40,847 nt of DNA from Candidatus Gottesmanbacteria bacterium RIFCSPHIGHO2_01_FULL_40_15 (GTDB lineage: Bacteria > Patescibacteriota > Microgenomatia > 2-02-FULL-39-11): positions 641-41,487 of the forward strand of contig MFJF01000004.1 of NCBI GenBank assembly GCA_001779115.1. Direction: 5' to 3'. The translations under genes and the position numbers were made by a program. Under the pieces are notes generated by a model. That model was not told the origin of the DNA. It saw nothing but the letters and a program-made list of their open reading frames with translations, and made no database searches. Below, one piece after another: positions 5,857-39,840 of this stretch (its first letter is position 1; each line of letters begins with the position of its first letter).

Positions 5857-6585
5857 ATGAATAAATTCCTTATACGGGCAGTCTTTTTATTGTCCTTGAC
5901 AACAGTTTTACTTTTTAACTCCTTTTCCGTTTTTGCTGCCGGTGATGAAGAGCCGACTGCCACTCCCGAACCTGAAGTCCAGGAAGAAGAATCTGATATA
6001 CCGGTATATGGCGGTGTTCCGGTTTATGGAGGGGGAATAATATCCCCAAGAGAAGGGGAAGTAATAGTTGAGAAGAAAGTGCTAAATCCAGCTACCGGTG
6101 TATTTGTTGATCATTTGGGACCGACTGATCCTAAATATAAACCGTTGGATATTATTACTTTTCAAATTCGGGTACAAAATAGTGCTGAAGAAGAACTGGC
6201 GGAAATAAATTTGGTTGACACTTTACCTGATTTTGTTGATTTTAGTTCCGGGCCCGGAGATTATGATGAGAAAAACAGGCAATTAAACTTTAAAGTCGAA
6301 AATCTGGTTGGAGGCGCGTCTGAAGTATTCGAAATAAAAGTAAGGGCTTCACACCAGTCTACTTTTCCTGAAGAAGAATCAGTCCTTTGCCCGGTAAACG
6401 TTATTGAAGCTACAGTTGAAGACAAAACGGACAGAGACGAAAGCCAATTCTGCATAGAAAAGGAAGTTGCTGAACTTGAACCGCAGGAAACTCCTGAAGC
6501 CGGACCCTTCAATTGGCTGTTATTAATCCCGGGACTTTTGGGCTCAATGTCTGTAGGTTCTTTTTTAAGAAGAAAAACAAAATAA
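5857..6585 (+). CDS. Secreted, C-terminally anchored DUF11-like surface protein
   Basis: The 242-residue protein begins with a signal peptide (hydrophobic residues ~6-27 ending VFAAG). An acidic, proline-rich spacer follows (about 29-65). A beta-rich domain at ~70-190 resembles DUF11/conserved-repeat domains of surface proteins (FQIRVQNSAEEELAEINLVD, then TLPDFVDF). A Pro/Glu linker leads to a C-terminal membrane helix (about 217-236) and a basic RRKTK tail that would hold it in the membrane. It is likely an adhesive or structural cell-surface protein. It has its own strong promoter and is probably a single-gene unit, since a terminator-like hairpin follows. Confidence 0.7.
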   Translation: MNKFLIRAVFLLSLTTVLLFNSFSVFAAGDEEPTATPEPEVQEEESDIPVYGGVPVYGGGIISPREGEVIVEKKVLNPATGVFVDHLGPTDPKYKPLDIITFQIRVQNSAEEELAEINLVDTLPDFVDFSSGPGDYDEKNRQLNFKVENLVGGASEVFEIKVRASHQSTFPEEESVLCPVNVIEATVEDKTDRDESQFCIEKEVAELEPQETPEAGPFNWLLLIPGLLGSMSVGSFLRRKTK

Positions 6586-36000: not shown

Positions 36001-36474
36001 GTGGCCTCATCCGGAATTACCATAATCAGTGAAAACCCGTCCCGGACAAAAAAAATGGGAAAAAGACTAGCTTCCCGGCTGAAAGGGGGAGAGGTATTGG
36101 CTTTTTTCGGGGATTTAGGAGCCGGTAAGACTACTTTCATAAAAGGACTCATCAATTGGTTTCTGCCGGGAAGGCGGGTTATCTCCCCTACTTTCATTAT
36201 TGTGCGACAATATTGGCCGGTGAGAACAAAGGTTAGTCAGATAATCCATGCCGATCTCTACCGCTTGGAAAAAATTCCTGAAATTGAAGATCTGGGTTTA
36301 ACGGATTTTTATAATAATCCGGGCGCGGTTTTACTGATCGAATGGGCCGGTAAAATTCAGGGCTTCCTTCCGGAAAAAAGACTCGAATTGCATTTCGACG
36401 TCAAAGAAGATAACAGTAGGATCATCACTATTAAACATATGAATCAGTTTCCCCATCTTAAAAATATTTTTTGA
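36001..36474 (+). CDS. tsaE: tRNA threonylcarbamoyladenosine biosynthesis ATPase TsaE
   Basis: The 157-residue protein shows the Walker A GDLGAGKTTF (about residues 38-47), HADLYRLEKIPEIEDLGL and VLLIEWAGKI, the TsaE/YjeE pattern. It powers the TsaB-TsaD complex that makes t6A37 on ANN-reading tRNAs. GTG at 36001 is the only plausible start and is probably the 5' end of the message. It overlaps tsaC by one base (TGATG). Confidence 0.93.
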   Translation: MASSGITIISENPSRTKKMGKRLASRLKGGEVLAFFGDLGAGKTTFIKGLINWFLPGRRVISPTFIIVRQYWPVRTKVSQIIHADLYRLEKIPEIEDLGLTDFYNNPGAVLLIEWAGKIQGFLPEKRLELHFDVKEDNSRIITIKHMNQFPHLKNIF

Positions 36475-37073
36475 TGAGTGTTTCAAAAGCCATAGAAATA
36501 TTAAAAAAAGGAGGTATTGTCATTTTTCCGACAGATACAGCCTTCGGTATCGGATGCCGGGTAGATGATTATGAAGCGGTCAAAAGGTTATTCAAAATAA
36601 GAAACAGACCGGAAAATCAGCCCGCACCGGTTCTGGTTGATTCCGTTTCAATGGCGGAAAAAGTTCTTACATCTCCCCTTCCTGACAATGTGCGACATCT
36701 AATGAAAGATTATTGGCCGGGATCACTTACGGTAATTTGGTATTGCCGTAAAAATCTTATTCCTCCTCCGGTAAGAGGCGGCGGTGGCTTATTAGGGGTC
36801 CGCGTGCCGGATCATAGCCAGGCATTAACAATAATAAAAGGTACCGGAGTCCCGATACTGGGTCCGTCAGCCAATTTTCACGGTAAAAACACACCTTTTG
36901 AATTTAAAGATCTTGATCCTGCTCTTGTCCGGCTGGCCGATTTTACGGTACCTGGTGACTGTACAGTCAGGCAGGTCTCGACCGTTATTGACACAACACC
37001 GTCTCCCTGGAGGATAATCAGACAGGGTGCGTCGGTAGTCGAAATAAACCGCTATAAAAGGCATGAAAAATAA
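36474..37073 (+). CDS. tsaC: Threonylcarbamoyl-AMP synthase TsaC/Sua5-type
   Basis: The ~199-residue protein has GGIVIFPTDTAFGIGC, FKIRNRPENQPAPVLV (the KxR-type nucleotide-binding segment) and GPSANFHGKNTPF. It makes threonylcarbamoyl-AMP from threonine, bicarbonate and ATP, the first step of t6A. A TTG at 36471 is in frame, but the ATG at 36474, sharing one base with the tsaE stop, is preferred. The length fits TsaC without the C-terminal Sua5 domain. Confidence 0.9.
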   Translation: MSVSKAIEILKKGGIVIFPTDTAFGIGCRVDDYEAVKRLFKIRNRPENQPAPVLVDSVSMAEKVLTSPLPDNVRHLMKDYWPGSLTVIWYCRKNLIPPPVRGGGGLLGVRVPDHSQALTIIKGTGVPILGPSANFHGKNTPFEFKDLDPALVRLADFTVPGDCTVRQVSTVIDTTPSPWRIIRQGASVVEINRYKRHEK

Positions 37074-37386
37074 TAAATATAAATTATATTTTGATACAAG
37101 TAACCGCCAATCTGTCAAAATAAAATTATTCCTTAACGGGGATTTGGTAGCGGAAAAAAGCCAGTTACATTTATTGACTTCGCAAATTCTTCTTATTCTG
37201 ATTGAAAAAGTGTTGCGGAATAACGGATTAACCGTCAGGCAAATATCAGAAATAGAATTTAACCCCGGACCCGGATCATATACCGGTCTTAAAATCGGAG
37301 CGGCTGTGGGAAATACTTTGGGTTGGCTTTTAAATATTCCGGTAAACGGCAAGAAAAAGACCATCGCTCTTCCGGTCTATCAGTAG
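37063..37386 (+). CDS. tsaB: Short TsaB-like protein (N-terminal lobe only)
   Basis: The 107-residue protein carries the TsaB opening (KLYFDTSNR, LFLNGDLVAEK) and the family motif FNPGPGSYTGLKIGAAVGNTLG. TsaB is usually ~220 residues; here it ends after the first ASKHA lobe (ALPVYQ, then TAG). TsaB is a scaffold for TsaD in t6A synthesis and its first lobe makes much of the contact, so a half-length form may still work. It overlaps tsaC by 11 bases. No remnant of a second lobe is seen before the convergent gene at 37409. No tsaD is in the window. Confidence 0.78.
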   Translation: MKNNKYKLYFDTSNRQSVKIKLFLNGDLVAEKSQLHLLTSQILLILIEKVLRNNGLTVRQISEIEFNPGPGSYTGLKIGAAVGNTLGWLLNIPVNGKKKTIALPVYQ

Positions 37387-38941: not shown

Positions 38942-38969
38942 TTGACAAACTGTGGTCATTCATTTTAAC
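38942..38969 (+). promoter_or_regulatory. Promoter of the 39250 leader
   Basis: TTGACA (38942-38947) is a perfect -35; TTTAAC (38964-38969) is a 4/6 -10 at 16 bases. The transcript would start near 38976, giving a ~274-base leader before the GTG at 39250. Confidence 0.55.
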
Positions 38970-38976
38970 GTGAAAT

Positions 38977-39032
38977 TAGAAGAGTTTGCCGACCGCAAAC
39001 GGAAGCAATCCTTGAATAGGATTGCTTTTTTT
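38977..39032 (+). ncRNA. Candidate short leader RNA
   Basis: From the predicted start this ~55-base RNA would hold a six-pair hairpin GTTTGC/GCAAAC (38984-39000) and then the strong terminator 39004-39032. If termination is efficient, a free small RNA is made. No known RNA family was recognised. Confidence 0.4.
39004..39032 (+). terminator. Strong intrinsic terminator in the leader
   Basis: AGCAATCCT pairs perfectly with AGGATTGCT (nine pairs, five-base loop) and is followed by seven T. No plus-strand gene lies upstream for it to end, so it must act on the leader transcript. Confidence 0.8.
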
Positions 39033-39047
39033 ATGCATCTCTTGCCG

Positions 39048-39077
39048 AGCTTTTCCCCTGCCCCGGGAAGCTTTTTT
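39048..39077 (+). terminator. Second terminator-like hairpin in the leader
   Basis: AGCTT-tt-CCC pairs with GGGAAGCT (39065-39072) with a two-base bulge and is followed by six T (39072-39077). Confidence 0.55.
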
Positions 39078-39138
39078 ATCGCCGACTCTCTGCCATGAAA
39101 AATAAGACTGCTCTCTGCCAGGATAAACACTCATTACC

Positions 39139-39242
39139 CCTGACGGGTCTGGGTACATCTGCCCGGATCCGTTGTCTTCAGGCGGTAACGGGTGTTTTTT
39201 TGTGGAAAACCCGTTTAAGTATTATCTGCCTGAAAGGAGGTG
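39139..39242 (+). promoter_or_regulatory. Switch-like region with mutually exclusive stems ending at the SD
   Basis: Stem 1: ACGGGTCTGGG (39143-39153) with CCCGGATCCGT (39162-39172), 11 pairs including two G-U, extended by CCTGA (39139-39143) with TCAGG (39178-39182). Stem 2 (terminator-like): ATCCGTT (39167-39173) with AACGGGT (39187-39193), then seven T. Stem 3: AACGGGT with ACCCGTT (39209-39215), closed by TTCAGGC (39177-39183) with GCCTGAA (39228-39234), next to the SD AAGGAGGTG (39234-39242). Stems 1, 2 and 3 share segments and cannot all form at once. Confidence 0.6.
39167..39201 (+). terminator. Third terminator-like hairpin, competing with an alternative fold
   Basis: ATCCGTT pairs with AACGGGT (seven pairs, one G-U, 13-base loop), then G and seven T (39195-39201). 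Its arms are also used by the alternative stems, so termination could be conditional. Confidence 0.5.
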
Positions 39243-39249
39243 ATATAAA

Positions 39250-39840
39250 GTGAAAAAAATAATCAGCGCGGCTTTCAGCGCGGCTTTATTTTTAGCTGCC
39301 GTTACACCGTCATTAGCAGCCGATAGGGTCCGTATCATTGATACCGGTGCGCAGTCGTGGAATATTGGCGGTGTCGTAAGGTTAAAAAGAACCGTTGTCA
39401 CTAATCCGCAGAATGCTGCTATTACCAATAATGTTAATTCCAACACAAACTCAGGTGGAAATGAAGTCCAATTCAACACCAAGGTTTTGGGGGATGTATC
39501 AAGCGGTAAAGCCACTTCATATCTTGACGTCTATACTGATGTTAACAATTCCGACATCGAGATTAACGGTTGCGGTTGTGAAGAGGATACGAATGTTTTA
39601 ATTGAACAAACAGGCTATCAGTCAAAAAATGTAGCTTTGGTCGTTGACGCCCAGTCAATTTCTGTGAATAACACTCAAGATGGAAGAGTTGTTAATAACA
39701 TAAGCTCAAGTGCAAATTCCGGGGGCAACAAAACTAATTACAACACCAAAGTTGATGGTGGAGTATCAAGCGGAAATGCCAAAACAACGACTTTTGTAGA
39801 TACATGGGCAAATACATCGGTTATTACAATTAATCAGTAA
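39250..39840 (+). CDS. Secreted protein with two ~45-residue repeats
   Basis: The 196-residue protein has a signal peptide (about 1-24, ending SLAA). Two related units follow, one beginning VNSNTNSGGNEVQFNTKV (about 61-105) and one beginning ISSSANSGGNKTNYNTKV (about 151-195). Each has an NSGGN turn, NTKV, G-x-VSSG and a final beta part ending INx. Asn/Ser/Thr-rich beta repeats suggest a surface fibre or coat protein; no enzyme motif is seen. Start is GTG 39250 behind a full-length SD (AAAGGAGGTGAT) and a long structured leader. A NGCGCEED motif (about 101-107) adds two close Cys between the repeats. Confidence 0.72.
   Translation: MKKIISAAFSAALFLAAVTPSLAADRVRIIDTGAQSWNIGGVVRLKRTVVTNPQNAAITNNVNSNTNSGGNEVQFNTKVLGDVSSGKATSYLDVYTDVNNSDIEINGCGCEEDTNVLIEQTGYQSKNVALVVDAQSISVNNTQDGRVVNNISSSANSGGNKTNYNTKVDGGVSSGNAKTTTFVDTWANTSVITINQ

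Follow-up and report, generated by a model that had tools for sequence, protein, structure and literature searches.

A probable transcription-attenuation element in the leader of a secreted repeat protein gene of Candidatus Gottesmanbacteria

What does the long leader ahead of a small secreted-protein gene do in Candidatus Gottesmanbacteria bacterium RIFCSPHIGHO2_01_FULL_40_15? The leader lies within a stretch of 40,847 nt (contig MFJF01000004.1, positions 641 to 41,487; here the window, to whose numbering all coordinates refer) from a 1.33 Mb CPR genome. An initial annotation, made from the letters of the window, had noted a perfect -35, three terminator-like hairpins and mutually exclusive stems near the 3′ end of the leader, and had proposed a candidate riboswitch or attenuator. 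We find that the 5′ end of the leader is probably an attenuator of transcription belonging to an RNA class not yet described, in which a factor, most plausibly a protein, would turn envelope genes ON.

The leader and its gene

The initial observation was sound, since the -35 is perfect, three hairpins with U-runs are present (T1 to T3, Table 1) and the leader folds far better than shuffled sequence (-99.3 kcal/mol, with shuffled sequences averaging -72.9; z = -5.4; 0/200 shuffles). There are four terminator-like sites in the region where 1.3 are expected, although the scan listed T2 and T3 and missed T1. The register proposed for T3 did not stand: its 'closing helix' form is computed at -40 kcal/mol, and the earlier ATCCGTT/AACGGGT hairpin at -9 kcal/mol. 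Transcription would start near 38978, as placed from the promoter sequence, and locus comparison finds TTGACA...TTTTACATTGGATATAGAG at the equivalent position in family leaders.

Table 1. Features of the leader and the gene that follows it (window coordinates).
Feature	Coordinates	Strand	Description and basis
Promoter	38942..38971	+	-35 TTGACA 38942-38947, 18-nt spacer, weak -10-like TAACGT 38966-38971; predicted from sequence
Putative antiterminator hairpin	38986..39008	+	P1 38986-38990/39004-39008; covariation, models R1 and R2
Internal loop of the hairpin	G38991-A38992/A39003	+	between P1 and P2
P2 of the hairpin	CCG 38993-38995/CGG 39000-39002	+	loop CAAA 38996-38999
Terminator T1	39003..39032	+	AAGCAATCCT 39003-39012 / AGGATTGCTT 39018-39027; U-run 39026-39032
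Terminator-like hairpin T2	39048..39077	+	loop UGCCC; U-run 39072-39077
Terminator T3	39125..39201	+	outer stem 39125-39138/39184-39197, inner hairpin 39143-39172, U-run 39195-39201
Shine-Dalgarno and start codon	39235..39252	+	AGGAGGTG, GTG 39250; sequence, kept in relatives
Controlled gene	39250..39840	+	196-aa secreted protein, signal peptide, two Asn/Thr/Gly-rich repeats

The product of the controlled gene is the small secreted repeat protein that had been annotated. It has no match among curated Pfam or NCBIfam families but has homologues in all 15 family genomes, the closest among named genomes being those of Candidatus Gottesmanbacteria. An AlphaFold model (pLDDT 49, low confidence, beta-rich) was left uninterpreted. 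Genes for TsaE, Sua5/TsaC-like and TsaB-like tRNA-modification proteins (36001-37386) adjoin this surface-protein locus, and a TsaB-like gene also adjoins the surface-protein locus of a genome of another family (G642, locus L119), so that long-range synteny of the two is possible.

T2 and T3 are predicted to be further stops, conserved within the family only. The UGCCC loop of T2 is present in most of the 14 family leaders that were read, on stems that vary compensatorily (ACACC/GGUGU, UUCAUC/GAUGAA, UUACC/GGUAG), and the U-run is broken or absent in some of them. The T3 outer stem (ACUC...GAGU/GGGU) and its U-run are shared with family leaders.

Alternative pairing and covariation at the 5′ end

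Used as a DNA query against the 15 family genomes, the leader matches all of them, with the best match mostly confined to its first ~50 nt; this segment (38986-39032) is a conserved, putatively cis-regulatory RNA. It contains a ~20-nt hairpin with the consensus YRCY-GA-CCG-CANN-CGG-A-RGYR, the 3′ strand of which doubles as the 5′ strand of the intrinsic terminator T1, and in family loci the terminator starts inside the last four letters of this core (RGYR). In the window copy the 5′ arm of T1 is the 3′ arm of P1; the T1 stem is a perfect 10 bp, and P1 has one mismatch, C38990:A39004. Like this mismatch, a rival hairpin (GUUUGC/GCAAAC, -6.3 kcal/mol) that is compatible with T1 counts against switching in this particular copy.

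Covariation was assessed on element-level alignments rather than on whole-leader alignments. In 25 family sequences there is compensatory change both in the hairpin and in the terminator, well above shuffled and slid controls. A covariance model containing P2 and the terminator, without P1 (model R1), collected homologues from the class and aligned 82 of them, and in the great majority of these P1 is paired, a helix that the fitting had not used. Over 81 distinct homologues 93.4% of P1 and P2 cells are paired, with 66 double changes (cell counts not being independent events); 0/500 shuffles are as high, and slid-partner controls give 24-48%. The terminator helix also covaries, with 83-92% of cells paired. 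Column 24 changes with both its P1 partner and its terminator partner (G-C-G in 40 sequences, A-U-A in 12), and the shared strand covaries with both in this three-way manner, as expected of antiterminator and terminator pairings that exclude each other. P2 is nearly invariant, and where it changes the change is compensated (CUG/CAG in L085, GCG/CGU in L128, GCG/CGC in L194 and L235); long compensated P1 helices include UUUGUU/AACAAA, CUAACC/GGUUAG and CUCAGCC/GGUUGAG.

Mutually exclusive stems thus exist with evolutionary support, as the initial annotation had supposed, but they lie at 38986-39008 versus 39003-39027 and not at the 3′ end, in a stretch that the annotation had given as a terminator only. 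It had also set the absence of compensatory changes in homologous leaders as the outcome that would count against an attenuator or riboswitch; such changes are present across the whole class, a stronger case than its reader could know. The leader has the general parts of an attenuator, namely a 5′ leader, an intrinsic terminator before the gene, and a computed alternative pairing that removes the terminator.

A folding script finds a terminator that reuses the hairpin 3′ strand in 98 of 115 copies, with mean energies of -8.1 kcal/mol for the hairpin and -23.8 kcal/mol for the terminator; the script is pattern-based, and a few duplicates or chance sites may be among its counts. In a few copies that have no terminator the hairpin instead buries the ribosome site (GGAGG) of a short leader ORF. 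The hairpin GGAGG or GAGAAA is such a ribosome site in L109, L198/L205, L202 and L210, where the short ORF ends in or crosses a later terminator-like hairpin, and in L137 and L152 the leader ORF extends to the ribosome site of the next gene. The ORFs of L109, L202, L205 and L210 (14-23 aa, before TasA/camelysin-like and repeat-protein genes) are possible translation-coupled attenuators with the same hairpin. That one sensor hairpin has different outputs suggests that the hairpin is the recognised part, and the minority of copies that cover a leader-ORF ribosome site suggest a portable sensor module.

Distribution and genes behind the hairpin

In samples of GTDB genomes R1 matches 15/15 family genomes and 61 of 374 genomes of the class, and a hairpin-only model (R2) matches 82 of the 374, about a fifth; E-values from both models are rough. 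Across a phylum sample R1 matches 8 of 380 genomes, seven of them inside the class, and the R1 match outside it (G285) is weak. R2 gives only six weak matches outside the class (G165, G220, G264, G265, G291 and G329), none in a comparable leader. We reject the out-of-class matches as true copies, as those that were read lack a comparable leader and several fall within open frames, and within the R1 set L151 was rejected because the hairpin is absent. The exact hairpin pattern has 24 matches in viral contigs, mostly inside open frames, with a convincingly long P1 only in L278. This hairpin (positions 6185-6225, strand -, of IMGVR_UViG_3300036766_000117) has a 9-bp P1 and no terminator, and a ribosome site and a 152-aa ORF follow it a short distance downstream.

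Two arrangements are seen. Copies either follow a TTGACA promoter and precede the first surface-protein gene, as in the window, or are of a second type (class-2) located just 3′ of an upstream gene and ahead of the next repeat-protein gene. Chief among the targets is a secreted repeat protein, ~380-460 aa long, that has a signal peptide and whose start resembles TTIxISGNG. The 82 hairpin-positive and 76 protein-positive genomes have 61 in common (hypergeometric p ~2e-37, phylogeny ignored), and a listed hairpin stands 64-305 nt (median 152) upstream in 49 of the 53 best surface-protein matches that were looked at. Secreted Asn/Thr/Gly repeat proteins recur among the genes 3′ of copies, and the 'other' category of an automatic gene census consists mostly of secreted repeat proteins overlooked by its crude pattern. 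UDPG_MGDP/nucleotide-sugar dehydrogenases are downstream in six genomes (L083, L085, L100, L101, L122 and L125), and other targets are a PIG-L deacetylase (L102), a family-2 glycosyltransferase (L221), camelysin/TasA-like proteins, and a protein that combines a peptidase-like N-terminal part with a lamin-tail domain. These targets are unrelated to each other, and nearly all suit the cell envelope. No model match is obtained in fifteen class genomes that encode the main surface-protein family, and no copy is evident in 13 of the 14 of their upstream stretches that were read, so the hairpin is not indispensable.

The hairpin is thus small, strongly conserved, and found upstream of secreted and envelope genes in ~20% of the sampled class genomes. 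Our literature search found no regulatory RNA described in Patescibacteria/CPR, and the mechanisms by which these bacteria differentiate between cell states have been described as completely unknown (PMC11665869). Given its presence before surface-protein genes in about a fifth of the sampled relatives, the switch seems to be a previously undescribed RNA that acts as an on/off control for the cell surface.

How the switch may work

RNA polymerase would first make the ~20-nt hairpin, with P1, the GA/A internal loop, P2 (CCG/CGG) and the CANN loop, which is complete before the 3′ arm of the terminator is made and so should form first. If the hairpin holds, its 3′ strand would be unavailable as the base of T1 and transcription would continue; if it opens, T1 would form and transcription would stop. 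A factor is probably needed to hold it, since the terminator is usually far more stable and should displace it. We infer a factor acting in trans that reads the CANN loop, the internal loop and P2 and stabilises the hairpin in response to some signal, with envelope genes ON as the outcome. By analogy with LicT-RAT and ANTAR systems the factor would be an RNA-binding protein, a preference that follows from the nature of the invariant part, a hairpin of 20 nt interrupted by a small internal loop. One point against this model is that the leader-ORF copies would respond with the opposite sign if folding blocks translation. More tentatively, a single undescribed RNA-binding protein (or ligand) might read the hairpin throughout the class and coordinate many surface-protein and envelope-glycan genes through interchangeable platforms (terminator, leader-ORF ribosome site), forming an RNA-based regulon for envelope state and perhaps for an attached/swarmer switch.

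The RNA class is undescribed but the mechanism is of a known kind. Neither the whole window nor 20 homologous loci have an Rfam 15 match at gathering score, be it to T-box, PyrR-site, known riboswitch or r-protein leader families, in line with the annotated lack of a known class; permissive searches gave only sub-threshold matches, mostly to unrelated gene types. The RAT elements of BglG, LicT and SacY are short leader hairpins that contain one or more asymmetric internal loops; their 3′ side overlaps a terminator, and their folding shortens the terminator stem beside the U tract (PMC3369936). Our element is likewise a short 5′-leader hairpin with an internal loop, mutually exclusive with a terminator by three-way covariation, but it differs in sequence, has one conserved internal loop rather than two, and precedes surface genes rather than those for sugar catabolism. 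Proteins with CAT_RBD (PF03123) were found in 0/15 family genomes, whereas the E. coli, B. subtilis, C. glutamicum and L. lactis controls were positive, which speaks against a LicT/BglG-type factor in these 15 genomes. ANTAR leaders (AmiR, NasR, EutV) also have a protein-stabilised hairpin overlapping the 5′ arm of a terminator; they depend on two stem-loops in which loop residues A1 and G4 are critical (PMC3369936), whereas here there is one conserved hairpin with a 4-nt CANN loop.

In EAR and LoaP systems an RNA element in the leader enables polymerase to run through several terminators ahead of envelope genes. Read-through of several terminators before such genes would be a likeness shared with LoaP, EAR and put, but here each hairpin directly overlaps one terminator. 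A single NusG-domain gene was found in each of 13/15 family genomes, and the other two, both drafts, yielded none. No LoaP-like paralogue is therefore seen; with CAT-domain proteins also absent, the factor would be of some other type.

A metabolite or ion riboswitch of the same architecture, with the hairpin binding a small molecule, perhaps a nucleotide sugar or other envelope precursor, is rather unlikely. Several of the genes (NDP-sugar dehydrogenases, PIG-L deacetylase, glycosyltransferase) would fit envelope sugar metabolism, and more than one expression platform is used, as in riboswitches. However, the controlled genes are mostly structural surface proteins rather than enzymes or transporters, and the conserved part is a ~20-nt irregular hairpin in which no pseudoknot or second helix is seen. 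Natural aptamers are usually larger than this, and small irregular hairpins are typical of protein sites. Transcription-terminating ON riboswitches differ both in this core size and in the Rfam result given above.

We consider it improbable that a ribosome, either sitting on the hairpin GGAGG or translating a leader peptide, blocks the terminator. GGAGG is common, an ATG follows it by a few nt in the four leaders noted above (L109, L198/L205, L202, L210) and opens an ORF to the later hairpin, and the L137/L152 ORF reaches the next ribosome site; most copies, however, have the overlapping terminator instead, and GGAGG can be lost with pairing kept (CGCAGG in L194 and L235, CGUAGG in L128, CGGAAA in L213). 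The invariant CCG and the A-rich loop would also be unaccounted for.

Still less probable is the absence of any switch. The element would then be a repeat, a strong terminator acting constitutively, or a hairpin at the 5′ end of some short stable RNA. The terminators are real, and the position of class-2 copies immediately after an upstream gene would suit an ordinary terminator, but P1 covaries although a terminator has no need of it, and the hairpin is kept in terminator-less copies. A promoter-proximal constitutive terminator would moreover silence its gene, and copies are few per genome and ahead of envelope genes, unlike a mobile repeat. The 3′ switch first proposed, in which two copies of ACGGGT (39143 and 39188) would compete to pair with ACCCGT (39209) and GCCTGAA (39228) is placed beside the SD, is hardly credible: the sequences and inverted repeats exist as described, but L011 and L012, the leaders of the two closest orthologues, lack the ACGGGT/ACCCGT pairing, T3 is conserved in a different register, and the GCCTGAA helix is specific to the window sequence.

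The proposed attenuation element is suited to in vitro work, and its hairpin is a good bait for the regulator. Some further features of these leaders may be recorded. A MITE/REP-like repeat, ATGCA(T/G)CTCTTGCCGA...AGAGATGCATAATCCGCC, directly follows the terminators in several genomes (L012, L068, L070), and 39033-39050 of the window retains its first half. CUGCC(C) occurs five times in the window leader (39058, 39090, 39115, 39159 and 39226) and also near relatives' leaders, and the hairpin loops of class-2 leaders contain its complement, CCUAGGCAG. Just 5′ of the SD of repeat-protein genes lies a further leader motif, in which GAAGUGC/U precedes a variable hairpin (37 distinct by pattern; L107, L116, L120, L133, L244-L248, L251 and L252); this motif is present also in leaders that do not have the antiterminator hairpin.
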